Of a stretch of 45,709 nt of DNA, positions 2-43,510 are shown piece after piece; the stretch's first letter is position 1; each line of letters opens with the position of its first letter. A program made the position numbers and the translations under genes. The notes under the pieces were generated by a model. The model worked only from the letters and a program-made list of their open reading frames with translations. It made no database searches and was not told the DNA's origin. Source of the DNA: Roseibium sp. TrichSKD4. Lineage in GTDB: Bacteria > Pseudomonadota > Alphaproteobacteria > Rhizobiales > Stappiaceae. The stretch covers positions 263,411 to 309,119 of the forward strand of contig NZ_GL476319.1 of the NCBI RefSeq assembly GCF_000148725.1, written 5' to 3'.

Positions 2-403
2 CGCGTGGGTTTTGTCGTCACCAACTTGCCGATGGAGCCGGAATGGATCATCCGCTTCTACAATCAGCGCGGCACAGCCGAACAGCACATCAAAGAAGGC
101 AAGAACGCCATCACTTGGACCCGCCTGTCCTGCAAGCGGTTCTGTGACAATGAGGTCCGGCTTCAGCTTCACGCATTGGCGTATAACCTTGGTGTCTTCC
201 TGCAAGGGCTAGACCTCCCGGAAGAGGTCGCCGACTGGTCGCTGACAAGTATCCAGAGCCGCCTCATCAAAATCGGGGCAAAGGTCGTACGCCATGCGCG
301 CAAAATCACGTTCCAACTGGCAGAGGTGGCTGTATCAGGCTACGTCTTCGGACGAATCCTCGCCGCAATCCGCGCCCTCAAGCCCCCGCCGAGGCCTGCA
401 TGA
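2..403 (+). CDS. IS1380-family transposase, C-terminal part (5' end off window)
   Basis: The reading frame is already open at the left edge, so this is only the last ~134 codons of a DDE transposase. The segment FYNQRGTAEQHIKEGKNA (about residues 18-35 of the visible part) is the conserved block carrying the catalytic glutamate in IS1380-family transposases. It is followed by the helical C-terminal region (LHALAYNLGVFLQGL). The catalytic aspartates would lie outside the window. The enzyme would cut and paste its own element. The element's right end lies downstream, near 600-625. It sits immediately upstream of a truncated EAL gene and probably took part in that rearrangement. Family assignment is from motif recognition; completeness and activity cannot be judged here. 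Confidence 0.8.
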   Translation, partial: RVGFVVTNLPMEPEWIIRFYNQRGTAEQHIKEGKNAITWTRLSCKRFCDNEVRLQLHALAYNLGVFLQGLDLPEEVADWSLTSIQSRLIKIGAKVVRHARKITFQLAEVAVSGYVFGRILAAIRALKPPPRPA

Positions 404-769: not shown

Positions 770-3436
770 TTAATTGTGTTTCGTGATGACGGTGAGTGCG
801 GGTTTTAGAGGCTTAACCAATGCGTAATGGGATTTGGAGGTCGCCATATCGTCAACGAAAGCCCGATCGATCTTGATCCATGAGAATGGGAACCAGGCCA
901 GCTGCGACAGACCGGAATAGCCGGTCCCGAAGTCGTCCAGCGCGAATTGACAGCCAAGGTCACGGATCGCGTCAATCCGCATTTGCAGCTCGTCGGTCTG
1001 ACCGACAAACATGGATTCAGTAATCTCCAGTTTCATTCTCTCGGACGGGAAGCCGGTCTGGTCAAGGCAGTTTTTCACCACGTCCGCAAAACTCTGCTGC
1101 AAGAATTGTTGCGGCGATACATTGACTGATAGAAGAATATCACCGCCCAGTTTCACTAGGTCGGACGCAGCCCGGTTCATGACCCACTCGCCAATCTCCA
1201 GGATCATTCCGCTTTCCTCGGCGATCGGAATAAACTCCGCCGGCGATATCGGGCCGAGTGTCTGGTGGTTCCATCGGATCAGTGCCTCAACACCAAGCAA
1301 ACCCTTGTCGGCGAACCCGACTTGAGGCTGATAGAATACGCTCAGCTCGTCCCGCTCCAAGGCGTTGGTCAGTTCAACTTCCAGCGCGCGGCGACGAACA
1401 AGCCCCTCCTCCATATGCGGCTCGAACTGGATAGTCGATGCCCGCATATCCAACTTCGCGCGCGAAAGAGCGTTGCCAGCCTTTCGAATGAGCTGACCTG
1501 AAGATGTATCAGTTTCCGCCTTTTTGCTGCTGACATATCCCATACTAATCGAAACTGGAACACGGTTTCCGTTCGACGAAAAGTCTTCAGAAATGCCCGC
1601 ATGCAAGCGTTCGGCCCACCCTTCCGAACAACCGGTTTCAGGGGTGAGCGGAACAAACACGGCATAAGAATTGTCGTGAAGAACGCCCAGATAAGCGTCA
1701 TCCCCGATGCAATTTTGAAGGTCTTCACCGACTGAGCGCAACAGATCATCGGAATAGGCCATGCCCAATGAGGCCTTTACACTGTCTATTTCGTCCACCG
1801 CAATACAATAGACACAGAATACTTCATCTGGGTCAGCGGTCTGAAGACGGACGTCACACTCCATCTCGAAAGCATTTCGGTTCAACAAACCGGTCAAAGG
1901 GTCATGACGAGCCAGATATGCAAGTCGTTTTTGCGCCTCTCTTTCAAAGGTCACATCCCGGCATGTCACTGACGCAAGACGGGTGTGGCCCTCCTCACCA
2001 ATTTCCGAACGCTGCGCAGTCTGTTGCGTCGTTGTCGTCACCACATATTCAACGTGGCGGCGGTCACCACCTTCAATTTCAAGTTCAATGTTCTTTTTGG
2101 AAGCTGAATAAGTTTCCTTTGCCCCATCGAACGCTGATTTCACGTCTTCAATGACAGCATCCGGCAGAACATTTTGGGCCGATTGTCCGGCCTCAAATTC
2201 ACGCTGAAAGACGGCATCTGCCTTGTGGCTGGCCATGCGCAGTGTCAGGTCTCGGTCGATAACGATAATGGCATCAAAGCTGTCGTCAAAAACCTGCTTG
2301 AGCATTTGCTCTGTGTTTTCTGCCCGCCGCTGCGAAACCAGAGCAAGAATCTTGTGAAAGCCAATTTGGCGAAACAGCACATAAAGCGCTGTCATACCGA
2401 ACAAAAAATGGGTAGCGCTTGTATCTGGAATAATAGGACGGACTTGCTGAACGCCATAAGCTGCAACCTCGATAGCAGCTGCAAAAACAACAAGGGCCAG
2501 AACACGAACCTGCCAATTGATCATTACCAGCAAAACAAGCGGCAAAAGTAAGAAAATGGCCAAACCAAAAATTGTCCAACGGCCCGTTGTCTCCAACGCC
2601 CTACCCTGAATAATGGACTCAGCGCCCAGAGCTTGAATCACGCCCCCTGGGAGCAGGCCGTAAACGGGGACTGAGAAGATATCCCGCAGCTCCTGAGCTG
2701 TCGCGCAGACAATAACCACTTTGTCTTGAAAAACATGAGACGGCGCTGTTCCATTCAATACATCAACAAAGGAGACCCGCTCAAACTTCAGCGGATCAAT
2801 GCTGTAGTCGATCCAGAACGAACCCTCGGTCTTGGTCGGGACACCTGACATCAGGGCAGAAAGCGACGGCTCTACACCTTGACCCACTTGGTCGCCATAA
2901 CGCGCATGCCAGATCTGACCATCAGTTGAAATCGGAACACTTACTACGCCGGGCCACGAATGCTCCAAAAACAGGTCAATTGGTCGATTAACGTGGCTTC
3001 CGCCCTCTTCAGTAGTTCCAAAGTTGGACTGCTGCCGAAAAGTTGCCAGAGTCACCGCTCCCTCGGCCCGCGCAAGGGCTTCCGCAAATTTGGCATCTTC
3101 TTCAGGTGTTGATTGAGCGCTGAAATCAACGTCGAAATAAACTTCTGCGGCCCCCTGCTCGATGACTTTGTCGACAAGCTCCCCATGAAGGCCGCGAGGC
3201 CACGGCCAGACGCCAACGCCGGAGAGGCTGTTGGCGTCAATTTCGACAATAACAATCTCACCAGAAGGTGCGTTGCTTTCGACGGAAAACCGGCCTTCGA
3301 CCAAAAACCGCAGGATCGGATCTAAGCCACCAGCATACCCAAACAAAACGACAGTCAGCACCACAATGGCGAAGGCCGATTGCGTCTTCAGCCCGCGCCA
3401 ATGCGTCTTCCATGTGGATTTTTGTTCAAAGGTCAT
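770..3436 (-). CDS. CHASE2-PAS-GGDEF-EAL membrane protein with truncated EAL domain
   Basis: An 888-residue inner-membrane c-di-GMP protein. Order: one membrane helix (~22-42), an extracytoplasmic CHASE2 sensor (~45-285), two or three membrane helices (~290-350), a PAS-like domain (~375-505), GGDEF (~515-665) and EAL (~680-870). The GGDEF signature is replaced by HDNSY, so diguanylate cyclase activity is not expected. The EAL domain keeps EALIRW, NVSPQQF, EITES and DDFGTGYSGLS. It stops after SKSHYALV and continues with about 13 unrelated residues, so the last ~70 residues of a normal EAL fold, including the AEG(V/I)E block, are missing. The ATG at 3436 follows GGGA at good spacing; a TTG four codons upstream is less likely. 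It lies 48 bases downstream of a FecR gene on the same strand. The product is probably inactive as a phosphodiesterase, although the sensor may still fold. Confidence 0.85.
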   Translation of the reverse strand: MTFEQKSTWKTHWRGLKTQSAFAIVVLTVVLFGYAGGLDPILRFLVEGRFSVESNAPSGEIVIVEIDANSLSGVGVWPWPRGLHGELVDKVIEQGAAEVYFDVDFSAQSTPEEDAKFAEALARAEGAVTLATFRQQSNFGTTEEGGSHVNRPIDLFLEHSWPGVVSVPISTDGQIWHARYGDQVGQGVEPSLSALMSGVPTKTEGSFWIDYSIDPLKFERVSFVDVLNGTAPSHVFQDKVVIVCATAQELRDIFSVPVYGLLPGGVIQALGAESIIQGRALETTGRWTIFGLAIFLLLPLVLLVMINWQVRVLALVVFAAAIEVAAYGVQQVRPIIPDTSATHFLFGMTALYVLFRQIGFHKILALVSQRRAENTEQMLKQVFDDSFDAIIVIDRDLTLRMASHKADAVFQREFEAGQSAQNVLPDAVIEDVKSAFDGAKETYSASKKNIELEIEGGDRRHVEYVVTTTTQQTAQRSEIGEEGHTRLASVTCRDVTFEREAQKRLAYLARHDPLTGLLNRNAFEMECDVRLQTADPDEVFCVYCIAVDEIDSVKASLGMAYSDDLLRSVGEDLQNCIGDDAYLGVLHDNSYAVFVPLTPETGCSEGWAERLHAGISEDFSSNGNRVPVSISMGYVSSKKAETDTSSGQLIRKAGNALSRAKLDMRASTIQFEPHMEEGLVRRRALEVELTNALERDELSVFYQPQVGFADKGLLGVEALIRWNHQTLGPISPAEFIPIAEESGMILEIGEWVMNRAASDLVKLGGDILLSVNVSPQQFLQQSFADVVKNCLDQTGFPSERMKLEITESMFVGQTDELQMRIDAIRDLGCQFALDDFGTGYSGLSQLAWFPFSWIKIDRAFVDDMATSKSHYALVKPLKPALTVITKHN

Positions 3437-3484
3437 CCGGTTTCCCAAAAACGAAGAGCACGCTCCTAAGCCTTAGGGCCTGGG

Positions 3485-4579
3485 TTACTTCTTGCCATTC
3501 CCTTTACCGTTGCCATTTCCACCGCCGTTGCCGTTGCCACCGCCGTTGCCGCCGCTATTGCCGTTGCCGCCGCTATTGCCGTTGCCACCGCCATTGCCAC
3601 CGCCGTTGCCGTTGCCGCCGCCATTGCCGTTGCCACCGCCGTTGCCACCGCCGGTGCCGTTGCCATTGCCGCCGCTATTGCCGTTGCCACCGCCGTTGCC
3701 ATTGCCGCCGCTATTGCCGTTGCCACCGCCGTTGCCACGGCCATTTCCACCAGCGTTGGAGTTCCCAACGCCGTTTCCATTGCCGCGGCCATTACCAGCT
3801 GATTGGGAGTTGCCTCGGCTTTTCCCATTGTTCGCAAACGAATTTCCGCGACCATTTTTCCCGTTGGCGGCCCGTTGACCACCACCGAAAATTGCGCCCA
3901 AACCCCCACCACGATTGGCGCGCTCAACCTGCCGCGACTTACCTGGAATCGCCTTTGGAACATTCTTGACAGCAGGTGTCTCGAACACTGGCGCCTTTTT
4001 CTGTCCTCGGACAACTTGCGGCTTGGTCCGACCGCCAACCTGCAGGCCAACCGAACGTGTTGGGTTCGTTGAAGCGCTCTGGCCTGCGCCAACATTTGCA
4101 CGGTCACCAGACGCGAAATCGTCAACTTGAACCAACCCGCGCTCGACTTCGACCCGCGCAGAAGCGCCGTCTACAACGACATCGAATTTTGTCCCTTTGA
4201 CAACCGCTGCCATGTAGGGAGTTTCTACAGTGAAATGTGGCCGGGCACGCTTTTGAACATCAACCTGCAAGCGACCTGCTGTTTGAAGAAGCGTGGTCTT
4301 TCCACCAGTGCTGCGATACTTGGACAGGGCGAACTTGGTGTTCGGCCCAACAAAAATCGTTTCAGCACCACGCGCAATCAAGGCACGTGCTCGGCCCTTG
4401 GTCGCCACTGTGTAACCCGGCTCCAGAGGCATTCCCGTTTTTGCACGGAAAGCTTTCACTCCAGGTGCAACCAGATACACTTTGCCAGTTGCTTTTTTCA
4501 CCACCCAGCCGCTGGCTTCCGCAATTGAGCAAGATAGCGCAAGCACAACAACACAAAGTGTCAATAATTTCGCGAGCAT
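3485..4579 (-). CDS. FecR-domain secreted protein with Asn/Gly-rich tail
   Basis: A protein of ~364 residues. A Sec signal peptide (MLAKLLTLCVVVLALSCSIAEA) is followed by a FecR domain (~25-155, containing GYTVATKGRARALI and FTVETPYMAAVVKGT). A basic linker with a GLQVGGRTKP motif comes next, then a ~120-residue tail made almost only of Gly, Asn and Ser in GGNGNG/GGNGNS units ending in lysines. The FecR fold is known from the sigma regulator FecR, but this protein lacks the cytoplasmic anti-sigma part and the membrane anchor, so a secreted structural or sensory role is more likely. It is a paralogue of the gene at 4793-5683 and lies directly upstream of the CHASE2 protein. The start is uncertain: no strong Shine-Dalgarno precedes 4579, and in-frame starts exist at 4645 and 4657. 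I chose 4579 because it gives a clean signal peptide. Confidence 0.75.
   Translation of the reverse strand: MLAKLLTLCVVVLALSCSIAEASGWVVKKATGKVYLVAPGVKAFRAKTGMPLEPGYTVATKGRARALIARGAETIFVGPNTKFALSKYRSTGGKTTLLQTAGRLQVDVQKRARPHFTVETPYMAAVVKGTKFDVVVDGASARVEVERGLVQVDDFASGDRANVGAGQSASTNPTRSVGLQVGGRTKPQVVRGQKKAPVFETPAVKNVPKAIPGKSRQVERANRGGGLGAIFGGGQRAANGKNGRGNSFANNGKSRGNSQSAGNGRGNGNGVGNSNAGGNGRGNGGGNGNSGGNGNGGGNGNSGGNGNGTGGGNGGGNGNGGGNGNGGGNGGGNGNSGGNGNSGGNGGGNGNGGGNGNGKGNGKK
3492..3745. repeat. Short tandem repeats encoding the GGNGN tail of the FecR protein
   Basis: Degenerate 6-, 12- and 18-base units, read on the plus strand as (ttgcc[ag]ccgccg) variants, fill this stretch without a break. They encode the Gly/Asn tail. 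The unit length is a multiple of three, so slippage would lengthen or shorten the tail without breaking the frame. Confidence 0.85.
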
Positions 4580-4792
4580 TGACCACGGATAGCTATCCAA
4601 CACTCGGCCCGGTGCCTTTAAACCAGAAACTGAAACCTGACGCATGACAACACCCAACGCAATACTAAGTTCTTCTGATGCCTCTACATGGCATTCTCAA
4701 AGCTTACTTTACGTCATTTGTTTTAATAATGATTGAAGTCGGGCTTCCTCAAACTACCAACATTGCAAAAACTGCCGATAGTAATTGACGTA

Positions 4793-5683
4793 TCAGTCAT
4801 CATCATCGTCATCATCGTCATCACCGCCGCCGGAGCCACCGCTGCCGCCAGAACCACCGCTGCCGCCAGAGCCACCCGTGTCGCCCGATCCGCTGGTTCC
4901 ACCGGTAGAATTGCCTCCACTTGAAGAAACAGACGCAGAAGACGATCGATTGTCTCGTTCCGAACCTGAATTCCTGCTGCTGCTGCTATCCCCACCATTA
5001 CCGCGCTCATAGCTGTTTCGCGAGGATGCCAACGACCCGCCTAGCGTAGCTTGAGGGTTTTGAGGAACACTGGCTTGTGGGATGATTGGGATTTGAGGGG
5101 TTTGGAAGGCTGGCGCTTTGGGTTTGCCGGGAACAACAGTCGGTTTGGTTCTGCCACCAACTTGCAATCCAACAGATTGGCTGGGGCGACTGGCAGCACT
5201 TTGCCCTGCACCAACATTTGCTCGATCACCTGACGAAAAGTCGTTGACACTCACAAGGCCGCGCTCAACCTGAACCGTTGTTGATTGACGATCGACCCGA
5301 ATGTCAAACTTTGTGCCTTTTACGATCGCGGCCAAAAAGGGTGTCTCGACAGTGAAATGTGGGCGCGCACGCTTTTGAACATCGACCTGCAATTGCCCCT
5401 CGGTTTGAAGCAGGGTCGTTTTTCTGGCTGTGCTGCGATATTTTGAAATGGCGAATTTTGTGTTCTGACCCACAAAAATCGTCTCGGCTCCTCGTGCGAT
5501 CAAGGCTCTAGAACGCCCTTTGGTCGCAACAGTATAGCCGGGCTGAAGCGGCATACCGGATTTAGCCCTGAAGGCTTTGACCCCAGGCGCCACCAGATAA
5601 ACCGTCCCCGTTGCCTTTTTGACCACCCAGCCATTCGCCAGAGCCATGGACGGCGCAAACGTAAAAAGCGCAACCGCGAGCAC
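4793..5683 (-). CDS. FecR-domain secreted protein with GGS linker and poly-Asp tail; start disrupted
   Basis: A paralogue of the FecR protein at 3485-4579: the regions from GWVVKKATG through GLQVGGRTKP are nearly the same. After the FecR domain comes a Ser/Arg/Asn-rich linker, then a GGSGGS-type run, then nine consecutive aspartates at the C-terminus, a very acidic tail that could bind cations. The best-looking start is an ATG at 5738-5740, placed just after AGGAAAAACG. It runs into an in-frame TAA at 5699-5701 after 13 codons. The remaining frame can only begin at the GTG at 5681-5683, which has no ribosome binding site and leaves a shortened signal peptide (LAVALFTFAPSMALA). Either the gene has a recent nonsense mutation or the first 13 codons are a coupled leader peptide. 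FecR assignment is firm; expression is doubtful. Confidence 0.7.
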   Translation of the reverse strand: MLAVALFTFAPSMALANGWVVKKATGTVYLVAPGVKAFRAKSGMPLQPGYTVATKGRSRALIARGAETIFVGQNTKFAISKYRSTARKTTLLQTEGQLQVDVQKRARPHFTVETPFLAAIVKGTKFDIRVDRQSTTVQVERGLVSVNDFSSGDRANVGAGQSAASRPSQSVGLQVGGRTKPTVVPGKPKAPAFQTPQIPIIPQASVPQNPQATLGGSLASSRNSYERGNGGDSSSSRNSGSERDNRSSSASVSSSGGNSTGGTSGSGDTGGSGGSGGSGGSGGSGGGDDDDDDDDD

Positions 5684-10874: not shown

Positions 10875-11450
10875 ATGACATTCAACCGCAAAATCCGTGC
10901 CCGACTTGGCCTCACCCTCTTGGCCACAACGCTTAGCGTGCTTCCGCTTGCCAGTGCTCATGCCACGACATGGACAGTCGATCACGACAAAAGCGTTCTC
11001 GGTTTTGAGTTCAATCAGGCAGGAACACCTGTAAAGGGCACGTTCAACGATTGGTCAGCCGAAATCGTGTTCGACCCTGAAGACCTTTCCGCAGCGACCA
11101 TCAGGGCAGACATCCAGACAGGCTCTGCATTGACTGGCAATGGACAGTTTGATGGCCTGATCCCAACCGCACAATGGTTTGATACAGACCAGTTTCCAAT
11201 CGCCACGTTTCAGTCAGATACGGTTCAGTTGATCGAAGGCAACATCTACGAGGCAGCAGGAACCTTGAACCTGCGCGGCAGCACCCAGCCGACCACCCTA
11301 CGTTTTTCTCTGGACATTCAAGACACCACAGCCAAGGCAACCGGCACAGCCGAGATCAACCGAACCGCTCATAAGGTTGGAGACGGTGTAGCGCCTAATA
11401 GTGTCGGCATTGATGTCACCGTCACCCTTGATCTAACGGCGAGCAAGTAA
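10875..11450 (+). CDS. YceI-family protein (second copy)
   Basis: A 191-residue secreted YceI-like protein: signal peptide to about residue 31 (ending ASAHA), then a barrel beginning TWTVDHDKSVLGFEFNQAG. It includes FDGLIPTAQWFDTDQFPIATFQSD and an AAGTLNLRGSTQPTTLRFSL strand pair. It is clearly diverged from the first copy and belongs to the shorter YceI branch that often pairs with b561. AGGAGAAACTC precedes the ATG. Eighteen bases separate it from cytochrome b561, so the three genes are one operon. Confidence 0.9.
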   Translation: MTFNRKIRARLGLTLLATTLSVLPLASAHATTWTVDHDKSVLGFEFNQAGTPVKGTFNDWSAEIVFDPEDLSAATIRADIQTGSALTGNGQFDGLIPTAQWFDTDQFPIATFQSDTVQLIEGNIYEAAGTLNLRGSTQPTTLRFSLDIQDTTAKATGTAEINRTAHKVGDGVAPNSVGIDVTVTLDLTASK

Positions 11451-11556
11451 GTTCGCCATGGAAAAGCGTTAAGTAAATCAACAACACAACTAAAAAGAAA
11501 AATCAAAATAGCCAAACACAACCAAATAATGTATACGTTATTCATATATAATATAT

Positions 11557-11577
11557 AAACTTACTATGCGTAAGTTT
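11557..11577 (+). promoter_or_regulatory. Upstream hairpin of a two-state leader (anti-sequestering form)
   Basis: AAACTTAC (11557-11564), loop TATGC, GTAAGTTT (11570-11577): a perfect 8-bp inverted repeat. Its right arm shares bases with the left arm of the hairpin at 11567-11602, so the two cannot form at once. Forming this one would free the ribosome binding site. At the DNA level it could instead be a regulator operator. Confidence 0.55.
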
Positions 11578-11602
11578 TACTCCAAAGCGGAGAACTTACG
11601 CA
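11567..11602 (+). promoter_or_regulatory. Hairpin that pairs the Shine-Dalgarno of the VWA/Tad-like gene
   Basis: The left arm TGCGTAAGTT (11567-11576) pairs perfectly with AACTTACGCA (11593-11602). The stem continues, after a three-base bulge TTA, with CTCC (11580-11583) paired to GGAG (11589-11592) around the loop AAAGC. GGAG is the only ribosome binding site in front of the ATG at 11604, so this 14-bp structure would block translation. Confidence 0.6.
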
Positions 11603-11603
11603 A

Positions 11604-12842
11604 ATGTATACAGGGATAAAAAATCGCATTCAGGCACTAAAGGGCAATATTAAGGGTAGCATTGCTATCCCCTTTGCACTTCTAGCCACACTGATCCTTG
11701 CGGCCATCTCCGTTGGGATTGACATGTCATTTGCGTATAACAAGCGCGACCAGAGCCAACTTGTGGCTGATGAAGTCTCGCTCTTCGCAGTTACTACATT
11801 TCGGAAATATGTTGCTGATGGAATGTCAAAAAATCAGGCGAGAAAACGCGCCGAAACCGACGCACGCAAATTTCTGACCGCGCGAACCAAGTCCCTTGAT
11901 GGAACGACAGAAAAATTCAGTATCAAAATAAACATTGTCGACCGGGAAGCAAAAGTCGTAAAAGCCAATGTAAACATTAGCGGCAAACACGAATCCTACA
12001 TGACCCATGCCATGGGCTTCGACAACATAGATTATACTGCAGATTCAGAATCGACAATTTCCTTCGGTCAGGGCAAATACGAGTTTATCTTTTTGGTTGA
12101 TGTCTCACCGTCAATGGGAATTGGTGCAAGTAATCGTGATCGTCAAATCATGCAACGAGCCATTGGTTGCCAATTCGCTTGCCATGAACCTTGGTACAGC
12201 AGTGTAAGCCGCGCAAAAAGCGCAGGAGCCCGTCTCAGGATTGACGTTGTCAAAGACGCTCTAAAGTCCCTCGTGACTCAACTAGAAGAAGCCACTGAAG
12301 TCGACTTGAGAACCGGTCTTTACAGCTTTTCAAATTATCTGCACATTCAAACAGGCCTGAACAAAGGCATCTCAAAATTCAAACGTGAGGCCAACAAAAT
12401 CGCCATCCACCGGGAGTACCTCCGTGGCGGCGGGACAAACTTCCATGGGGTTTTCAGTGATTTCAATGGGGTGTTGCGCTCATTAAAGCCAAAAGCAGAT
12501 GTTAAGCAGCACATCATTATAATCTCGGACGGTGTGAACCATCTAAACTTGAGAAGTGGTACGAATCGGCACCTTTGGAACCAGACACCTAATTGGCGCC
12601 CCTACAACTACAGCTTTAACCCGAGATGGTGTGATGAGTTCAAAAAGGGAGAGGTTAGAACAGTGCACACAATGTTGGTTGAACCAGACAGAGCCCATTA
12701 TGTTAGGGCTTCGACCTCTTCAATGAGAGCTTGTGCAACAAGCGCAGACTTTTTCTACAGTGCGAACTCAGCCGCAGAAATCGACAAAGCCTTCAAAGAC
12801 CTGTTTGAAGCCCTATTAAAGTCTGTGTATGTATCAAGCTGA
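11604..12842 (+). CDS. Tad-type (TadG-like) protein with von Willebrand factor A domain
   Basis: A 412-residue membrane-anchored protein. The N-terminal GSIAIPFALLATLILAAISVGIDMSFAY (~18-45) is the single hydrophobic helix of TadE/TadG-like pilus assembly proteins, followed by a coil region. A VWA domain starts at ~158 with the MIDAS motif D166-V-S168-P-S170. The later GGGTNFHG and IIISDGVNH segments complete the metal site. An insertion with GCQFACHEPW holds two close cysteines. Such proteins act at the cell surface in Flp/Tad pilus function or adhesion, but no other tad gene is nearby. Base composition and Lys/Asn usage are more AT-rich than the neighbours. A terminator follows directly. 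Confidence 0.85.
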   Translation: MYTGIKNRIQALKGNIKGSIAIPFALLATLILAAISVGIDMSFAYNKRDQSQLVADEVSLFAVTTFRKYVADGMSKNQARKRAETDARKFLTARTKSLDGTTEKFSIKINIVDREAKVVKANVNISGKHESYMTHAMGFDNIDYTADSESTISFGQGKYEFIFLVDVSPSMGIGASNRDRQIMQRAIGCQFACHEPWYSSVSRAKSAGARLRIDVVKDALKSLVTQLEEATEVDLRTGLYSFSNYLHIQTGLNKGISKFKREANKIAIHREYLRGGGTNFHGVFSDFNGVLRSLKPKADVKQHIIIISDGVNHLNLRSGTNRHLWNQTPNWRPYNYSFNPRWCDEFKKGEVRTVHTMLVEPDRAHYVRASTSSMRACATSADFFYSANSAAEIDKAFKDLFEALLKSVYVSS

Positions 12843-12867
12843 ATTCAACAATTACAGATCCAACAAA

Positions 12868-12896
12868 AATGGCGGCTTCCATGCCGCCATTATTTT
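12868..12896 (+). terminator. Rho-independent terminator of the VWA/Tad-like gene
   Basis: AATGGCGGC (12868-12876), loop TTCCAT, GCCGCCATT (12883-12891), then ATTTT. A perfect 9-bp stem placed 26 bases after the stop codon. Confidence 0.85.
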
Positions 12897-13015
12897 GCCT
12901 GTCATCCAAGCAGAACACTTATTAAAACTCGACTTCAAAATGTTTGACAACGCTCCCTTTGCTAGCCTCCTACAGTCGTCATTCAGTCCATTCGAGTACC
13001 GAGGAAGAAGGTATT

Positions 13016-13192
13016 TTATTTGCCTGAAATCACCTTGAACTTACCCGGTTCGCTGTTGATTTCGATAGCAGGTTTCGGACGTCCTACGAAGTATCCTTGC
13101 TGGTAATCGCACCCAAGATGACTCGCAATTCGATGTTGCGCGGCTGTTTCAATCCCTTCCGCGACAACTGCAAGATCCAGATTAATGAGTTC
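13016..13192 (-). pseudogene. C-terminal fragment of the H-NOX-linked EAL effector, cut off by IS5
   Basis: The minus strand from 13192 reads ELINLDLAVVAEGIETAAQH, then continues through LGCDYQQGYFVGRPKP to a stop at 13016-13018, 58 residues in all. This is the end of an EAL domain: the AEGIET metal-site block and the QGYF(V)GRP motif. Its 5' boundary is the left end of the IS5-family element. It has no start codon and cannot be expressed on its own. It fits as the missing tail of the gene at 14667-15809. Confidence 0.85.
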
Positions 13193-14666
13193 GCGCTGAA
13201 AAACCCCTTAACTGATTGAAGAGTATGGATACCCATTGGGTTTTGGATGTGTGAATATGCCGGTTAGTTGATCCGAAGCACGCATTTTCTGGCATATTCT
13301 CATGAGACCTTCAAAACGCAACAAACGGTGTGGCGATCTGTTCAAGGAACGCCTGGCCGCAATCATCGATATGAACCATTCGTTGGTGCGGCTGTCTGGT
13401 CTGATGCCTTGGGATGAATTTGATGCGGAGTTCGGCAGGCATTATCGCCCCTTGGGACGACCGGCCAAACCAACGCGTCTGATGGCCGGGCTGCACTTTC
13501 TCAAGCACATGTACGATCTTTCCGATGAAGAGACGGTTGAGCGTTGGGTTGAAAACCCCTACTGGCAGTCTTTCTGCGGTTTTGAGTTTTTCCAGCACCA
13601 ATTCCCCATTGATCCCTCAACCATGACCCGCTGGCGCAAACGGATTGGTCCTGAGGGAATGGAAAAGCTTCTTTCTGCTACGGTAGGTGTTGCGATTGAG
13701 AGCGGGACGATCAAGAAGAGCAGCCTTGAGCGGGTCTTGGTTGATACGACCGTTCAACCCAAAGCCATTGCCCATCCCACCGATAGCCGTCTTTATCACA
13801 AGGCCTTGCAGCTTCTGGTGCGCCAGGCCAAGAGGGCCGGCATCATCTTGCGTCGCAGCCATACCAGAGTTGCCAAAAAGGCGGCCTTGATGGCGGGCCG
13901 TTATGCCCATGCCAAACAGTTCAAGCGGATGCGCCGGGAACTCAAAAAGCTGAAGACCTATCTGGGCCGGGTCTATCGCGACATCTCCCGCAAGATCGCA
14001 GGCAACGAAGGTCTTGAGCACCGGTTCTCCCGTCTGCTGGGACTGGTGGAGCGGCTTCTGGCCCAGACCCCCAAGGACAAAAACAAGATTTATTCCATGC
14101 ATGCGCCGGAAGTGGCCTGTATTGCCAAGGGCAAGGCGCGAACACCTTACGAGTTCGGGGCCAAGGTTGGCATTGCCACGACCAATCGGGAAGGATTGGT
14201 TCTTGCGGCGAGGGCTTTTGAGGGCAATCCCTATGATGGGCACACCTTGAATGACACCATCAGTCAGGCTGAGAAAGTCTGCGGCACCAAAGCTGAGCGT
14301 GTCTATGTGGACCGTGGCTATCGGGGGCATGATTATGAGGGCGACGCCAAGGTCATGATCTCCGGCCAGAAGCGCGGGCTGACGGCACAGATGAAGCGTG
14401 AGCTGAAACGACGATCAGCGATCGAGGCCACCATCGGCCACATGAAAACAGATGGACGACTTGACCGGAACTTCCTCAATGGCAAAAATGGCGATGCCAT
14501 CAACGCCCTGCTGGCCGCAGCCGGTCATAACCTGCGTCTGATCCTCAATGCACTGATCATTTTGCTGCTCTGGATCACAAACCCCATCCCCAAACCGGTC
14601 AAATCGAATATTTGCGTATTGCTTCGGCCACGCGCAACATCAATGGCTTAGACGTTGTTCAGGGCG
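13193..14666 (+). mobile_element. IS5-family insertion sequence
   Basis: A complete-looking element of about 1.47 kb holding one transposase gene. Imperfect terminal repeats are visible: GCGCTGAAAAACCCCTTAAC at the left and the complement of GCCCTGAACAACGTCTAAGC at the right, 14 of 20 matching. No target duplication is seen next to the ends, and the flanking EAL gene lacks the stretch that should join the two sides. So the insertion was followed by an adjacent deletion or by recombination between copies. The precise ends are inferred. Confidence 0.75.
13302..14651 (+). CDS. IS5-family transposase
   Basis: A 449-residue DDE transposase. The N-terminal domain contains RPTRLMAGL-type and YDLSDEETVERWVENPYWQ motifs typical of IS5 relatives. 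Catalytic residues can be placed in VLVDTTVQPKAI (D), ERVYVDRGYRGHDY (D) and RRSAIEATIGHMKTDGRL (E, within the Y-(2)R-(3)E-(6)K type signature). The frame is intact from ATG to stop, so it may be active. The transposase would bind its own terminal repeats and cut and paste the element. It is inserted in the EAL-encoding partner gene of H-NOX. Confidence 0.92.
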   Translation: MRPSKRNKRCGDLFKERLAAIIDMNHSLVRLSGLMPWDEFDAEFGRHYRPLGRPAKPTRLMAGLHFLKHMYDLSDEETVERWVENPYWQSFCGFEFFQHQFPIDPSTMTRWRKRIGPEGMEKLLSATVGVAIESGTIKKSSLERVLVDTTVQPKAIAHPTDSRLYHKALQLLVRQAKRAGIILRRSHTRVAKKAALMAGRYAHAKQFKRMRRELKKLKTYLGRVYRDISRKIAGNEGLEHRFSRLLGLVERLLAQTPKDKNKIYSMHAPEVACIAKGKARTPYEFGAKVGIATTNREGLVLAARAFEGNPYDGHTLNDTISQAEKVCGTKAERVYVDRGYRGHDYEGDAKVMISGQKRGLTAQMKRELKRRSAIEATIGHMKTDGRLDRNFLNGKNGDAINALLAAAGHNLRLILNALIILLLWITNPIPKPVKSNICVLLRPRATSMA

Positions 14667-15809
14667 GACCAATAACAGCATGCTCGGTGACCTCAAACCG
14701 GACCTGCTCCGGCTCGATCCCAACTTCAATAATAGTATCCAGCACAAAATCCGGCAGATTTTCATCAACGATATCACGCTCAGCCAAATTGATTGATACC
14801 CAGCCGATTTGCCCGCGCCGCAAAGGTCTGGCGACCGCTCTTAATGAGTTGGCTATGATCTGGCGGGTCAATTCCCCCAAGAACCCGTGTTCTTCAGCTG
14901 CAACCAACGTATCAAGAGGAGAAACCGGTCCAAAGCCAGCGTGTTCCCACGCAATAACGCTTCGCACCCTGGCGGTTCCTTCTGATCTGAGCTCAAGATT
15001 GGCTGGAAATGCATATTGATTTCGCCCAGCGCAAGATCTCGTTTCAAAGCATGGCCAATTGCAGTTCTCAAACGATAAGCGCGAGCCAACTGTGGCTCGA
15101 AAGGGGAGTAGCGACCCCGGCCCTCATCCTTGGCTTTGTAAAGTGCCAAATCAGCATAGATTTGAAGTTCGTCAACGGCCTTCGCATCAGATGGGAAATT
15201 CGCCCCACCCATGGAAACTCCGCAGTTGAGCTGATGAGCACCAACAAGAAAGGGTTTTTCCATCTTTAGCTGCAGTTCATTGCAAATGCCGGTAGCCTCG
15301 GCAGCAGACCCTACGTTGGATAAAATGAGCGCAAATTCATCCCCGCCCAGCCGTGCGGCCCAATCACCATCACGCAAACATCCTCTTACGCGATCAGCAA
15401 AGGTTTTCAGGGTCTCATCGCCAGCCACATGCCCATAGGTGTCGTTGAGTTTCTTGAAACCATCGAGATCACAAAAAACCAGAGTAAACCCCGGCCCTTC
15501 AATCCGCCCCGGAGCCGCAAGGTCTTCGAGAATACGGGTGAAGCTTAATCGGTTCGGCAGGCCGGTGAGGTAATCATTTTCCGCAAGGTGCAAGGCCTTA
15601 CGACGTTCAACCTCCAACGCTTCCGTGCGATCGCGTATTCGTACTTCGAGCGTTTCATTCAGGCGGCTTAGATTGCGATTGACCTCAAACAGTTCACGGC
15701 TTTTGGCTTCCAGCAAGCTCTCAGCTTCAAGGCGCGCACGCTTCTCCGGGCTTACCCTTCTTTCCAGGCGAGCAACTCTTTTTTCCAGGTCATTTTCGGT
15801 CTCATCCAT
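14667..15809 (-). pseudogene. H-NOX-associated GGDEF-EAL effector, broken by frameshift and IS5
   Basis: From the start at 15809: a long coiled coil (~1-75), an intact GGDEF domain (~80-245, with RDGDWAARLGGDEF carrying both the inhibitory-site RxxD and the active-site motif), and the beginning of an EAL domain (HFQPIL...CEALLR). At about 14948 one base is missing: the frame should read RWEHAGFGPVSP but shifts to GNTLAL and stops at 14868. The correct frame continues to EVTEHAVIG and ends where the IS5 element begins. Stand-alone H-NOX proteins are known to bind and tune such GGDEF-EAL partners (HaCE). Here the cyclase half could still be made, without a working phosphodiesterase. It lies 22 bases downstream of the H-NOX gene. 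Confidence 0.88.
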
Positions 15810-15831
15810 GGATGATTAACCGCCCTTTGCC

Positions 15832-16377
15832 TTAAGTCTGTCTCTGCACTTTTATGTCAGCAAAGGTTCCGAACTCATCCTTGGCATGGTCCATCAGCAC
15901 TTCAACATGATCATCAAAATGATTGGCCGCAGACTGAATGAGACCGGACGCCAGCTGCGCCAAACAACGTTTGCTTCGATAACGAAGAACAGCTTCGTTT
16001 TTACCACGCGACACCATCTTCAGGCTTGGGAGCTCGGCGTTGGCATAAAGTTTGCGCACTTCAACGTGGATATGGTTTTCAACACTGTCCAGAAAATCGA
16101 AAAGACTGGCCTGTTGATCGAAAAAATCGCGGAATCGATCCCTGAAGCTCCCGCCCAGATATACGCCAAATCCGTGGATTAGGTCGTCGACTGATACGCC
16201 TGTTTGTTTGGAAAGCGCTGTGACCAAGGTTACCATTTCTTGAAAGTCGTAGGTTCCTACAGCCGTGTAGGCTCCCCCACTCGGCAAATCACACTCATCA
16301 ATCAGATCTTCAATCTCATCCTCACCAAAAGCTGAAGATGCATGTTCAATAAATTCAGTGAATACGATACCCTTCAT
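15832..16377 (-). CDS. hnoX: H-NOX (heme nitric oxide/oxygen binding) sensor protein
   Basis: A 181-residue single-domain heme sensor of the cytosol. The N-terminus MKGIVFTEFIEHASSAFG is the family signature. The proximal heme ligand is H104, seven residues before Y111 in HVEVRKLYANAELPS, and the propionate-binding Y-x-S-x-R motif is Y133-R-S135-K-R137. Length equals typical stand-alone bacterial H-NOX. These proteins bind NO tightly and change the activity of a partner kinase or c-di-GMP enzyme encoded next to them; here the partner is the broken GGDEF-EAL gene downstream. GGAGGTGAACT gives a very good ribosome site before ATG at 16377. The gene is intact, so it is now a sensor with a damaged output. 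Confidence 0.93.
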   Translation of the reverse strand: MKGIVFTEFIEHASSAFGEDEIEDLIDECDLPSGGAYTAVGTYDFQEMVTLVTALSKQTGVSVDDLIHGFGVYLGGSFRDRFRDFFDQQASLFDFLDSVENHIHVEVRKLYANAELPSLKMVSRGKNEAVLRYRSKRCLAQLASGLIQSAANHFDDHVEVLMDHAKDEFGTFADIKVQRQT

Positions 16378-16674
16378 AGTTCACCTCCAAGCAACCTCAC
16401 TTGCAGTGCTGCAGACTATTCTTAAGCTTTCATCCCATAGACATTAAAAATTGTTATGATTTCAATTAATTACGTATTTTTACAATTATATAATATATAT
16501 TCAATTTGATAATGAGCGCTCACCGCTACGTCACTTCATACTTGAACTAATTGTATAGACGCCAAGGCTGTACACTCTTTTCAGAATTCCTATAAAAGAC
16601 GACATCAATAAGCACCGGAACAATCGAGAGAAAAACCGGCGCGCCAATTGCCAGTCGACACAAGGGCTTTCCAG
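16378..16674. promoter_or_regulatory. AT-rich divergent promoter region, H-NOX / fumarase
   Basis: About 300 bases with no gene. The part from 16440 to 16510 is extremely AT-rich, and a small GAGCGCTC palindrome lies at 16513-16520. Both genes must be transcribed from here. I could not place -10/-35 boxes or an NO-regulator site with confidence. Confidence 0.45.
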
Positions 16675-18312
16675 ATGACCACTCCCGTGACGCCGCCCGC
16701 CTATGAGCACAGCGCCCTCTTCCCGCAAGGCGAAGACACCACGCCTTATCGCAAGCTCACATCGGATCATGTCAAAACAGCCGAGTTTAACGGCGAAGAA
16801 GTCCTTATGGTCGAGCCAGAAGGCCTGCGCCTGCTGGCTGAAGAAGCCTTCAAGGACATCAACCACTTTCTCCGTCCCGGCCATCTGGAGCAGCTGCAGA
16901 AGATCCTCAACGATCCGGAAGCAACGGAGAACGACAAGTTCGTTGCCTTTGACCTTCTGAAAAACGCCAACATCGCCGCTCACGGCGTGTTGCCGATGTG
17001 TCAGGACACGGGCACAGCCATCATCATGGGCAAGAAAGGCCGCCGCGTCTGGACAGATGGTTCAGATGATGCGGCTCTCGGCGAAGGTGCCCGCGACGCT
17101 TATTTCAAGAAAAACCTGCGTTACTCTCAGCTCGCGCCGATCTCCATGTTCGAGGAAAAGAACACCAAGAACAACATGCCGGCGCAGATCGAGCTTTATG
17201 CAGAAGGTGAAGACGCCTACAAGTTTTTGTTCATGGCCAAAGGTGGTGGGTCTGCGAACAAGACCTTCCTGTTTCAGGGCACGCCGTCGCTGCTCACACA
17301 TGACCGGATGATCGAGTTTCTGAAGGAGAAAATCCTGACCCTCGGCACCGCCGCCTGCCCGCCCTATCACCTTGCCATCGTCATCGGCGGCACATCTGCA
17401 GAATCCAATCTCAAGACTGCAAAACTGGCCTCTGCCCGGTATCTCGACAACCTTCCAACCGAAGGCTCAGAAGCTGGAAACGCCTTCCGTGACCTAGACA
17501 TGGAAGAAGAAATCCACAAACTGACACAGGCAACCGGCGTCGGCGCCCAGTTTGGCGGCAAGTATTTCTGTCACGATGTACGGGTCATCCGCCTGCCGCG
17601 CCACGGCGCCTCCCTGCCTATCGGTTTGGCAGTTTCCTGTTCGGCAGACCGTCAGGCCGTCGGCAAGATCACCAAGGACGGTATTTTCCTCGAGCAGCTT
17701 GAAATACATCCGGAAAAATATCTGCCAGAAGTGACTGATGAAGACCTGTCCGACAATGTGGTCAAAGTGGACCTCACCAAACCGATGTCAGAAATTCTGG
17801 GCGAACTGACGAAGCACCCGATCAAGACCCGCCTGTCCCTGACCGGCCCGCTGATCGTGGCGCGGGATCTCGCTCACTCCAAACTGCGCGACCGGCTGGA
17901 AAGCGGCGAGCCCCTGCCCGACTATTTCAAGAACCATCCGATCTACTACGCCGGACCGGCTAAGACCCCGGAAGGCATGCCCTCCGGCTCCTTCGGCCCC
18001 ACAACGGCAGGACGCATGGATGCTTATGTCGATCAGTTCCAGGCCGCTGGCGGTTCCATGGTCATGCTCGCCAAAGGCAACCGCTCAGCCCAGGTCCGTC
18101 GCGCCTGCCAGGCTCATGGCGGCTTCTATCTCGGCTCCATCGGCGGCCCGGCCGCCCGCCTCGCCCAGGACTGCATCAAGAAGGTGGAAGTGGTCGAGTT
18201 TGAAGAACTCGGCATGGAAGCCATCTGGAAGATCGAAGTCGAAGACTTCCCGGCCTTTATCGTCGTAGACGACAAGGGCAACGACTTCTTCAAGGAGCTG
18301 AATTTGGACTAA
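16675..18312 (+). CDS. fumA: Class I fumarate hydratase (4Fe-4S)
   Basis: A 545-residue iron-sulfur fumarase of the FumA/FumB type, which converts fumarate and L-malate in the citrate cycle. E. coli FumA is of nearly equal length (548). Visible hallmarks are the cluster-ligand block [49 protein letters not shown] (second cluster cysteine region), [26 protein letters not shown] and MLAKGNRS. I take the ATG at 16675; a TTG nine codons upstream lacks a ribosome site. Class I fumarases are sensitive to NO and superoxide, which makes the divergent H-NOX gene an interesting neighbour, although a functional link is only inference. A hairpin follows the stop. Confidence 0.95.
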
Positions 18313-18333
18313 CCCTCGTTCCGGCACCCCGCC

Positions 18334-18362
18334 GTCCCGGCCTACGAGCCGGGACCTTCTTC
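18334..18362 (+). terminator. Hairpin after fumarase, also a member of a dispersed repeat
   Basis: GTCCCGGC (18334-18341), loop CTACGA, GCCGGGAC (18348-18355), then CTTCTTC. The same arms recur at 20819-20838, so this is probably a mobile intergenic palindrome that serves as transcript end. Confidence 0.7.
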
Positions 18363-18479
18363 AGCCGGTTCAACCGCCGCAAGTCAAATCCGCGATGCCT
18401 TAAGGGTCATCCTACGATCCTGATGGCATGTGAAGCTTTCTCGTCACAGCAAACCAGTGTCTTTCAGCAATTGGCTGGA

Positions 18480-18713
18480 TCAATCTGTTCGCCAGTAATT
18501 GTTGGCGGCAGCAACTGTCGCAAAATTCGTTGCGACGACCGAAGAAACGGATATCAGGAAGTCCGCTTCGCTTTCATATTCGGCCCTTAGTTTTTGACGG
18601 ACACCGTCGTCGGGCTGCGTAAGTTTTACCGCCATGCGGGATAGCTTGATTGCCAATTCATACCCCTCCTGAGGCGAAGTAGTTATCATAGTGGGTAACC
18701 AAATCTCGCTCAT
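18480..18713 (-). CDS. Small hypothetical protein (77 aa)
   Basis: I do not recognise this protein. It begins MSEIWLPTMITTSPQEGYEL and has a basic, helical middle with EYESEADFLISV. It ends in a small-residue stretch (SVVATNFATVAAANNYWRTD) that could be amphipathic or membrane-associating. The start is supported by the purine-rich GAGGGAGAGGGAA just before ATG at 18713; a longer frame would begin at 18821 inside the upstream hairpin. It is on the same strand as the secreted protein upstream, but a strong hairpin separates them, so it may be expressed at a lower level or from its own promoter. Confidence 0.6.
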   Translation of the reverse strand: MSEIWLPTMITTSPQEGYELAIKLSRMAVKLTQPDDGVRQKLRAEYESEADFLISVSSVVATNFATVAAANNYWRTD

Positions 18714-18731
18714 TTCCCTCTCCCTCTTAGC

Positions 18732-18757
18732 TTTGCGGGGGATAGTTCCCCCGCAAA
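18732..18757 (-). terminator. Perfect 10-bp hairpin downstream of the secreted protein gene
   Basis: TTTGCGGGGG (18732-18741), loop ATAGTT, CCCCCGCAAA (18748-18757). It lies 11 bases past the stop of the minus-strand gene at 18769 and in front of the 77-residue gene. No T-run on the minus strand, so termination may be partial. Confidence 0.65.
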
Positions 18758-18768
18758 AGCGCTGACAA

Positions 18769-19527
18769 TTATTGAATTTTTCCAGGCAAAGACAAATCTC
18801 CGGATGCGACATCAAAAACATCCGTTACACAAAACAAAGGTGCATGGATATTGGCATTCACGCGAAGCGCTGCGGTCACACCGTCATAGTTTATACCAGA
18901 GACATTGACACTCTGATCAAACGCCACATTCACGCTAACCTCAGGTCCATCAAACAAAGGTGTAAAGCCGGGGCTATCCAGTAGAATTGGCAAGCCAGGC
19001 CATGTGGCAGGCAGATTAGGCGCTGCATCTTCAGGAATATCTTTAACGGTCAGGGCACCAGGTCCGCAAGCTTCATCGGGAGCCAGGACAACCCAATGAC
19101 TGTGCCATGTGTTTCCATCATTACCGACGTTTCCATCTCCATTCTCATCAAACAACGGCGTGTCATCGAAATCCGGATGTGTTGCTGCGGCCATGGCGAG
19201 AATACCAGCACCTTCGTCGAATCCCACACTTGAAGGGTCAAGGGTGGTTGGCCAGACATAGGCGTAGGCTGGTGCGCCAGCCAATTCACCTACTTGTGTG
19301 GGTTTTTCAGCGCCCGCGATACCGTTGGTCGTCATATGAAAAGTCACTACGTTGCCGTTGCGATGCGCGTGAGCAGCTAAAATATCAAAAGCAGCCGTTT
19401 TTGCTGCATCGCGTTCTGATTGAACAGCTCCGTCCTGATGAACCGCGTGAGAGTGCGAGCCGTCAGCCAATACAGGTGCCGTTCCAAGCGTAGCCAAGAC
19501 AGCAAGTATGGAAATTGTTGAGCGCAT
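18769..19527 (-). CDS. Secreted hypothetical protein with Asp/Asn-rich loop
   Basis: A 252-residue protein with a clear signal peptide (MRSTISILAVLATLGTAPVLA). The mature part begins with a His-rich segment (DGSHSHAVHQDG) and has an ENGDGNVGNDG stretch resembling a calcium-binding loop. There is an NTWHSHWVVLAPDEACGPGAL region and a second cysteine near the C-terminus (LFCVTDVFDVA), so one disulfide is possible. Histidines and acidic loops suggest metal binding in the periplasm. I do not recognise the family. It is transcribed away from the Cys-containing MarR regulator at 19617 across 89 bases that hold inverted repeats, so it is the likely target of that regulator. Confidence 0.75.
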   Translation of the reverse strand: MRSTISILAVLATLGTAPVLADGSHSHAVHQDGAVQSERDAAKTAAFDILAAHAHRNGNVVTFHMTTNGIAGAEKPTQVGELAGAPAYAYVWPTTLDPSSVGFDEGAGILAMAAATHPDFDDTPLFDENGDGNVGNDGNTWHSHWVVLAPDEACGPGALTVKDIPEDAAPNLPATWPGLPILLDSPGFTPLFDGPEVSVNVAFDQSVNVSGINYDGVTAALRVNANIHAPLFCVTDVFDVASGDLSLPGKIQ

Positions 19528-19560
19528 TTGTTTTCTCCATGTTAACTCTGCGTCAGCACT

Positions 19561-19606
19561 TATAGTAGCGAGTCACTATTATTGCAAATATAATTTCGAC
19601 TCGCTA
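19561..19606. promoter_or_regulatory. Inverted repeats between secreted protein and MarR-type regulator
   Basis: TAGCGAGTC (19566-19574) and its exact complement GACTCGCTA (19598-19606) flank an AT-rich 23-base spacer. The left copy lies inside a further repeat, ATAGT-agcgagtc-ACTAT, an 18-base site of MarR-operator size. The right copy ends 10 bases before the regulator's ATG, so binding would block both directions. Confidence 0.6.
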
Positions 19607-19616
19607 TATTTAAAAT

Positions 19617-20165
19617 ATGAGCTCAGAACGAAATTCCCGGATCCGAGAGTTGTTGGACAGGCTACTGAGGCTGCACGCGTCTGAAGACTGGTCGGAACCT
19701 CTCAATCCAGCACAGAGCAGCGCACTGAATTACCTTGTTCGGGCAAATCGGTTTTCCCGCTCACCTTCAAATGTTGCAGACTATTTGTGCACGACACGAG
19801 GAACAGCATCCCAGACGTTGAAGGCTCTGGAAAAAAAGGGCTTTATCGAAAAGGCAAGTGCGGCGGGCGACAAGCGATCACTCAGCTATAACGTCACAAA
19901 GATGGGCCTTTTGTTTGTTCAAAAAACAAGCACCTTGGATGACTCACTGAACCAGATTGATGACGCTACAAAAAGCAGTCTGGAAACCGGTCTCACCGAT
20001 CTCATCCGACATCAGCTAACGGCCAGAAACTTCAAGTCATTTGGCATCTGCAATACATGCAAACACCACCGTGTGGACGCAGGCCAACGAACCTGCCAAT
20101 TGCTTCAAGTTCCGCTCAAGAGCGACGAAGGCAATCAACTTTGCCATGAACATTCCGCCCGCTAA
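19617..20165 (+). CDS. MarR-family regulator with C-terminal cysteine cluster
   Basis: A 182-residue regulator. Residues ~10-130 form a winged-helix MarR domain (SPSNVADYLCTTRGTASQTLKALEKKGFIEK is the recognition part, and AAGDKRSLSYNVT the wing). The last ~40 residues are unusual: C145-x2-C148 in CNTCKHHR, then C160 and C176 near LCHEH, with three histidines close by. This could hold an Fe-S cluster or zinc and act as a redox or metal switch. No Shine-Dalgarno precedes the ATG, which follows only ten bases after the operator-like repeat, so the mRNA may be leaderless. It probably represses itself and the divergent secreted protein. Confidence 0.82.
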   Translation: MSSERNSRIRELLDRLLRLHASEDWSEPLNPAQSSALNYLVRANRFSRSPSNVADYLCTTRGTASQTLKALEKKGFIEKASAAGDKRSLSYNVTKMGLLFVQKTSTLDDSLNQIDDATKSSLETGLTDLIRHQLTARNFKSFGICNTCKHHRVDAGQRTCQLLQVPLKSDEGNQLCHEHSAR

Positions 20166-41966: not shown

Positions 41967-42101
41967 TCAGTCCAGACGCACAGAATTGTTCGAACTCTGG
42001 TTGACTGCCGCGGCCGAATAATCGAGCTGCTGTGTGAGCACGAACCACGCACCGAAGCTGATCAACACACATGCGGCAACACCGCCCACAAATGCCTTCA
42101 T
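41967..42101 (-). CDS. 44-residue membrane protein in the formate dehydrogenase operon
   Basis: A small frame, MKAFVGGVAACVLISFGAWF then VLTQQLDYSAAA and a polar end. It has one membrane helix (~4-22) and a ~20-residue polar tail facing the other side. Its ATG overlaps the stop of the upstream WD40-cytochrome c gene in an ATGA arrangement, which strongly supports coupled translation. It is too short for most gene finders. Similar single-helix proteins often stabilise membrane redox complexes, but no function can be assigned from sequence alone. A gap of ~170 bases separates it from the DUF6494 gene. Confidence 0.65.
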   Translation of the reverse strand: MKAFVGGVAACVLISFGAWFVLTQQLDYSAAAVNQSSNNSVRLD

Positions 42102-43510
42102 TGGCTTTGGTCTCCACTTTCTTGACTGTTTGGCTGGTCTGCGGACGGATCTGTCGCCCGTTTCAAAAAGGCGACAAGGGCATCCCTGTCTTCCACCGAC
42201 TTCAGCCGTTGGATTGGCATCTTGGACCCTGGCGTTACAATGTCCGGCCCGTGATCGAAAAGATCGGATATAGTTTTTTCATCCCAAAAAAAGTCGGCCT
42301 TTATCAAGGCCTCTGAATAGGGATACCCTTCCAGCCCGCCTGCCCGACGCCCAAAAACACCGAAAAGCGTTGGACCAGCGCGATTTCCACCATCCGGTGT
42401 CAACGTGTGGCAAACAGAGCATTTACGGGCAAACTGGCGTTCACCCGGATCAGATGTTTCGGCAACCTGAAACCGGCGTGGAAAGTCGATATCAAGCGCT
42501 TCAAACGGCTTTCGCGGCGAGACATCCCAAAGGTGAATTTCGTCATCCAGCCCGGTATAAAAGAGCCGGTTGCCATCGGCATTGAAACTCAGCCCCCAAA
42601 CCAGGCCATAGGGGTTTTCAAACTCTTCCAGCAGCTCGAAGGTTTTGGCATCAAAAACCCGAATGAGGCCATCTCCACCGCCACTGGCCGCGCGTTTTCC
42701 GTCAAGCGACACAGCCAGTGAAAGAACCGGACGGGTATGCGGCGGCAAGACCTTGATCTCTTCCCCGGTCCAAATGTCCAGAACGCCGGTCTTGCCATCG
42801 GTCACACCAAAGAACAGTGACGTCCCGTCTGGCAGGACTTTTAGAACATTGACACCCCACCCGAGATTGACGATCTCACGCAAAAACGCGCCCGTTTCAA
42901 CATCAAACTGTCGGATGCCACCGTCATAAGAGGCGGTAAAAAGCTGCGTCCCGTCTTTGGAAAACGCCACGGAGTTGACGTTGCCACGGTGCTGATCCAG
43001 CACATGCAAAAGTTTGGAAGGAGATGCCTCCAGATCGTAGATACGGGCCTGATTTTCCCAAGAGGCAACGGCAGCAAAGCGGCCATTTGCCGATACATCG
43101 ACGCTGAGAACTTTTTCGCCAAACCCATCAAAGCGGTGCAGAAGCTCAGCGGTTGTCAAATCCCAAAGGATCAGATCGCTGTCATCACCAACCGTAACCG
43201 CTCTGTTTCCCGGCAGAAACCGCCCATCATTGACCGCTGCCTCATGACCGATAAGCCGAAGCGGCTCTGCTGAAGCCTCCCCTGCTTCATCTTCAGACCA
43301 AACAAGCACCGAATAGTCGAAAGAGGTGCTGAGCAATCTCTTGCCAGACGGGTCAAGGGTCACCGACTTGACCGGGCCACCATGGCCTTCCAATCGATCT
43401 GGCCACTCGGCAAGCGCCGGTACAAAGGGGCTGGTCAAGCAAGTGAGGATGGCCGCTGTTTTAACGGCCAAACGCACTCCTGCCCTGTGTCGTCCCTTCC
43501 TCTGAACCAC
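42098..43510 (-). CDS. Periplasmic WD40 beta-propeller fused to cytochrome c
   Basis: A 470-residue secreted protein. A signal peptide (to ~35, ending VPALA) is followed by six or seven WD40-type blades (~38-345; for example LEGHGGPVKSVTLDPSGKRLL, LIGHEAAVNDGRFLP, HTRPVLSLAVSLDGKRAASGG). A class I cytochrome c domain (~360-455) carries CSVCH (heme), GPTLFGVFGRRAG and GSKMP (axial Met). It is encoded between the cytochrome b subunit gene and a small membrane protein, in the formate dehydrogenase operon. It may accept electrons from the enzyme or act as an assembly platform (inference). Confidence 0.92.
   Translation of the reverse strand: MVQRKGRHRAGVRLAVKTAAILTCLTSPFVPALAEWPDRLEGHGGPVKSVTLDPSGKRLLSTSFDYSVLVWSEDEAGEASAEPLRLIGHEAAVNDGRFLPGNRAVTVGDDSDLILWDLTTAELLHRFDGFGEKVLSVDVSANGRFAAVASWENQARIYDLEASPSKLLHVLDQHRGNVNSVAFSKDGTQLFTASYDGGIRQFDVETGAFLREIVNLGWGVNVLKVLPDGTSLFFGVTDGKTGVLDIWTGEEIKVLPPHTRPVLSLAVSLDGKRAASGGGDGLIRVFDAKTFELLEEFENPYGLVWGLSFNADGNRLFYTGLDDEIHLWDVSPRKPFEALDIDFPRRFQVAETSDPGERQFARKCSVCHTLTPDGGNRAGPTLFGVFGRRAGGLEGYPYSEALIKADFFWDEKTISDLFDHGPDIVTPGSKMPIQRLKSVEDRDALVAFLKRATDPSADQPNSQESGDQSQ

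Follow-up and report, generated by a model that had tools for sequence, protein, structure and literature searches.

An intact H-NOX gene beside a GGDEF-EAL partner with a broken EAL domain in Roseibium sp. TrichSKD4

A stretch of 45,709 nucleotides on contig NZ_GL476319.1 of Roseibium sp. TrichSKD4 (hereafter the window) carries an intact gene for a predicted H-NOX haem NO sensor, and the gene next to it is a broken member of the H-NOX-associated GGDEF-EAL enzymes, which in the Shewanella woodyi type are named HaCE. The reading that we favour, with moderate confidence, is that the pair has lost its phosphodiesterase half, that the coil-GGDEF product folds, and that H-NOX still controls the cyclase only.

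The H-NOX gene and its interrupted partner

The hnoX gene (15832-16377, minus strand) encodes 181 residues, and the Pfam HNOB profile spans nearly the entire protein (columns 1-161 of 163, E 1.8e-38). The nearest H-NOX locus found is that of Roseibium sediminis (locus L001, genome G001), whose H-NOX is about 63-64% identical (114/179). Solved H-NOX structures are found among the relatives of the protein, and its proximal haem histidine, H104 in HVEVRK, aligns without gaps to the same motif in the solved chain 6bde_A; the Y-x-S-x-R motif is likewise kept, as YRSKR with its first residue at 133. These observations bear out the initial annotation, which had described H-NOX as intact with both features in place.

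A spacer of 22 bp lies between hnoX and the reading frame of the partner (14868-15809, minus strand), which encodes 313 residues comprising an N-terminal coil, a GGDEF domain with an I-site (Pfam GGDEF E 7.5e-40), about 47 residues toward the EAL domain up to EALLR, and an out-of-frame tail; 161 of 287 residues are identical to the R. sediminis partner. The features of a diguanylate cyclase, namely the GGDEF motif and fold, are recognisable from the Pfam match, the motif and the predicted structure, and the RxxD I-site begins at residue 146, in keeping with the earlier view that the GGDEF half is intact. The partner adjoins hnoX and carries an N-terminal coil and a GGDEF domain, as do the H-NOX-associated GGDEF-EAL enzymes. 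The complete EAL domain of such enzymes, with its E, N, E, DD, K, E and Q, is absent from the window partner, in which the frame slips and DD and K are missing.

The EAL domain is broken in more than one place. Alignment to the R. sediminis partner changes frame at approximately 14949-14951 (minus strand): up to its residue 310, at 14949, it follows one frame, and its residues from 307 onward lie in another. This one-base slip parts EALLR in the first frame from the later EAL sequence in a second one (ORF 14659-14967). As a consequence of the slip, the predicted 313-residue product ends at 14868, before the insertion sequence is reached. Beyond the slip, the middle remnant of the EAL domain (14670-14949, minus strand; Pfam EAL columns 35-128, E 9.7e-11) is identical to R. 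sediminis at 55 of 100 residues and stays open as far as the border of the element at 14670. The C-terminal remnant (13016-13186, minus strand; columns 201-236, E 1.5e-9) resumes at 13186 and ends with a stop codon at 13016, with 20 of 41 residues identical. Between the two pieces, 72 of the 236 Pfam EAL columns are absent, and residues 404-473 of the R. sediminis partner, 70 in all and including DDFGTG and KID, have no counterpart between the window flanks. Nor is this stretch found elsewhere in the window, where a query with the R. sediminis partner returned only the partner's own pieces and a CHASE2 paralogue. The 70 missing residues rule out a clean, simple insertion. It follows that the 313-residue product keeps the coil, the GGDEF domain and the I-site and cannot form an EAL barrel.

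The initial annotation had the partner cut by an IS5-family element, with EAL parts (EVTEHAVIG and ELINLDLAVVAEG) that do not abut and some 60-75 residues gone. The element, at 13189-14669, does lie inside the EAL domain, and the loss relative to R. sediminis falls within that range. As for ELINLDLAVVAEG, its letters EL come mostly from the end of the insertion sequence and EAL sequence begins only at I (codon 13184-13186). Moreover, the element breaks the EAL domain and is not its sole lesion, the upstream slip having been overlooked.

The element itself is complete (1,481 bp, plus strand; terminal repeats GTTCGC / GCGGAC). Its terminal inverted repeats are imperfect, with 17 of 26 bases alike, and its transposase of 449 aa is open (13302-14651, plus strand; NF033578 columns 3-418 of 419, E 2.5e-170) with a score of 567 bits against a cut-off of 275. 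The flanking 6-mers, TAATGA and CAATAA, agree at four of six positions; two related copies for which both ends were found (L036 and L047) have identical 6-bp repeats. That no exact target duplication is present, as had been noted earlier, would fit a deletion that came after the insertion or together with it. A search of the window for a second copy found none. An 84% identical copy over query positions 1-1480, the best found, is present in one of 397 sampled genomes of the order (G415), and pieces occur in a second of these genomes; among 87 family genomes, five gave matches at E 0.001, the best being 71% identical. The window element is distinct from ISRm12, the annotated copies of which have a transposase of the same family and DNA that is 69-70% identical over about 79% of the query.

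Relatives of the locus and the age of the lesions

The gene order fumarase, H-NOX, GGDEF-EAL, VWA/Tad-type protein, YceI and cytochrome b561 is common to the window and the R. sediminis genome, in which the syntenic partner is intact (541 aa) and has the same neighbours. The fumarase of the window is 94% identical to its R. sediminis counterpart, and several further genomes of that family (Stappiaceae) are as close, which places the window in it. Of the remaining syntenic genes, 12 match R. sediminis in a single frame across most of their length, and an ORF of 143 residues at the edge of the contig is matched only partly. A plasmid or phage origin of the window was considered and rejected: plasmid matches over 11000-20000 amount to the fumarase and one 58-bp hit, and phage and viral collections returned distant transposase relatives only.

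Of 87 genomes taken as the R. sediminis family, 19 have an H-NOX match. Partner genes were scanned for 17 of these loci, together with L003 from outside that search (n = 18); the two left out are G060, where the contig ends in H-NOX, and G071, which gave no partner ORF with the query used. Thirteen of the partners carry a histidine-kinase HATPase_c domain and five are GGDEF-EAL proteins. The N-terminal coil of the window partner was detected in 17 of the 18, above all 200 shuffles, the exception being L071, which counts against the cyclase-only reading. Given that the same coil occurs in partners with different outputs, histidine kinases as well as GGDEF-EAL proteins, it is probably the part that docks H-NOX. 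Most of the family's scanned H-NOX partners, those of L058-L066 and others, are histidine kinases that have this coil in common with the GGDEF-EAL partners.

The catalytic E, N, E, DD, K, E and Q are retained in all five aligned GGDEF-EAL partners, so that, among the loci compared, only the window has lost this domain. A search among them for a close relative that shows such a broken structure together with an open frame found none, R. sediminis and the other four having a whole EAL domain. Prior degeneration of the EAL motifs in the relatives L054 and L055 was also considered, and is rejected by the alignment, in which DDFG and EGVE are kept.

The damage to the partner looks young. Amino-acid identity between the window and R. 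sediminis is 63% for H-NOX, 55% for the coil plus GGDEF, 60% for the start of the EAL domain, 58% for its middle piece and 45% for its C-terminal piece (47 residues). The middle piece differs from R. sediminis at 0.35, 0.25 and 0.70 of the first, second and third codon positions, an excess at third positions. That this out-of-frame piece is no more diverged than the GGDEF domain, and that its third positions differ most, suggests young lesions. The lower value of the C-terminal remnant, relative to GGDEF, speaks against recency; it is a short piece, and the same part is also less conserved in the intact pair L001-L054 (40%, against 47% for the coil plus GGDEF, with 51% for H-NOX, 36% for the EAL start and 40% for the middle piece).

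What the truncated partner may still do

The proposed course of events starts from an ancestral pair in which NO-bound H-NOX would have regulated a bifunctional c-di-GMP cyclase/phosphodiesterase. The IS5-family element lies in the EAL domain, some 210 bp of neighbouring EAL sequence are gone and the target duplication is not exact, as would fit an IS-adjacent deletion or recombination between two IS copies. A separate one-base slip further upstream, which can be read directly from the DNA, stops translation before the element. The remaining coil and GGDEF domain with its I-site would dock H-NOX, probably through the coil, and most likely leave cyclase-only control. An AlphaFold model of the 313-residue product, built on an alignment of three sequences (mean pLDDT 78.5, pTM 0.60), has a long helix at residues 2-77 and a well predicted GGDEF domain, with residues 1 to about 260 confident and residues 266-313 at a pLDDT below 50. 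The coil and the GGDEF domain with its inhibitory site are thus predicted to fold, and the EAL stub to be disordered.

The output now under H-NOX control is most likely no more than a cyclase. Published accounts have NO-bound H-NOX act on GGDEF-EAL partners by inhibition of the cyclase, stimulation of the phosphodiesterase, or both (PMC8738867, PMC5588039), from which the window pair would be at best an NO-inhibited cyclase. The suggestion in the initial annotation of a cyclase-only or absent H-NOX output therefore holds as regards an intact H-NOX, a destroyed EAL domain and an intact GGDEF domain, and falls short in its account of the lesions. NO-dependent biofilm control may be altered in either direction, since c-di-GMP is reported, in passages of PMC5588039, to work against biofilm in Paracoccus.

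The strongest rival is that the partner is a plain pseudogene, its truncated protein unstable or unregulated, with H-NOX left without output and next to decay. It is favoured by the two or more distinct lesions that this gene carries and by the disordered stub and out-of-frame tail, which could misfold and destabilise the truncated protein. On the other hand, the GGDEF domain, I-site and coil are free of lesions and H-NOX is whole, although, since the lesions look young, their intactness is no proof of use. We regard this rival as possible, if rather unlikely. An artefact, in which the slip would be a sequencing error and/or the IS join an assembly collapse of two IS copies that flank EAL sequence, is improbable: the element is a repeat able to mislead assembly and the window starts inside another insertion sequence, as is common in draft contigs, but the flanks of the element belong to one EAL domain in the correct order and strand, 12 of the other syntenic genes compared keep one frame over most of their length, and two IS copies would break the gene anyway.

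The broken pair has partial likenesses among known systems, and the favoured cyclase-only output has parallels in two of them, those of Paracoccus and Legionella. In the Shewanella woodyi type, as described in parts of PMC8738867 and PMC5588039, hnoX is directly followed by a coil-GGDEF-EAL gene, as in the window, where, unlike in that type, the EAL domain has been destroyed by a frame slip, a deletion and an insertion sequence. Passages of PMC5588039 describe Pden_3719/3720 of Paracoccus denitrificans as a GGDEF-only partner beside H-NOX with a cyclase-only output, as proposed here; that partner has no broken EAL domain, and the haem histidine, which the window keeps as H104, is missing from the Paracoccus H-NOX. 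In Legionella pneumophila, the GGDEF-EAL partner of Hnox1, Lpg1057, has a phosphodiesterase half that is likely inactive according to part of PMC8738867, but it is full-length, in contrast to the truncated window partner. Natural E. coli isolates have repeatedly lost EAL domains through stops and frameshifts, and their truncated proteins of c-di-GMP turnover include a YciR that lacks its EAL domain and keeps an intact GGDEF domain (PMC5635171); the passages of that paper mention neither an insertion sequence nor an NO sensor partner, unlike the window. None of the papers searched combines H-NOX, an insertion sequence and c-di-GMP, and the 10 listed of 179 matches to at least two among H-NOX and five genus or family names included none with H-NOX.

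The locus adds a case to ordinary gene decay, with damage that looks more recent and goes further than the initial annotation had held. Here a natural deletion has parted the cyclase half of an NO-regulated c-di-GMP enzyme from its phosphodiesterase half. Should H-NOX still act on the truncated product, docking and control would lie in the coil and GGDEF domain alone, and the locus would offer a route from a GGDEF-EAL partner to the cyclase-only partner known elsewhere; if it ignores H-NOX, the case would be one of ordinary gene decay.

A second damaged c-di-GMP gene

A further gene of this kind, the CHASE2 paralogue at 770-3448 (minus strand), encodes 892 aa with a CHASE2 domain, a degenerate GGDEF domain and an EAL domain that has lost its C-terminus (Pfam EAL columns 3-194 of 236). 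Its R. sediminis orthologue has 954 aa and a whole EAL domain, with the GGDEF domain already degenerate; the match stops at residue 885 of the orthologue (window 806), so that its last 69 residues are lost. The CHASE2 protein is matched in 41 of the 87 family genomes at E 1e-100, with matches that end at window residue 877-882 and open frames of 925 residues or more, one of the 41 having an internal stop.

The truncation lies about 400 bp from an IS1380-family transposase of which the 3' part remains at the edge of the window (2-403, plus strand; NF033539 columns 309-417 of 419, E 9.4e-35). Its score is 120 bits; the curated cut-off is 180, and a fragment is expected to fall short of it. Part of the interval 404-805 resembles sequence 3' of related IS1380-type transposases, and a search beside 2-403 for the right end of such an element did not find one. 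Two EAL domains within 16 kb are cut beside insertion sequences and the one intact GGDEF domain is kept, which might point to selection for higher c-di-GMP and for an NO response through cyclase inhibition alone; we consider this quite doubtful. The comparison of the two broken genes was chosen with the result already seen.

Two adjoining FecR-domain genes lie at 3485-5683 (minus strand), for which R. sediminis has three related ORFs with partial matches. Elsewhere, at 42098-43510 (minus strand), this bacterial DNA encodes a WD40-repeat protein of 470 residues.
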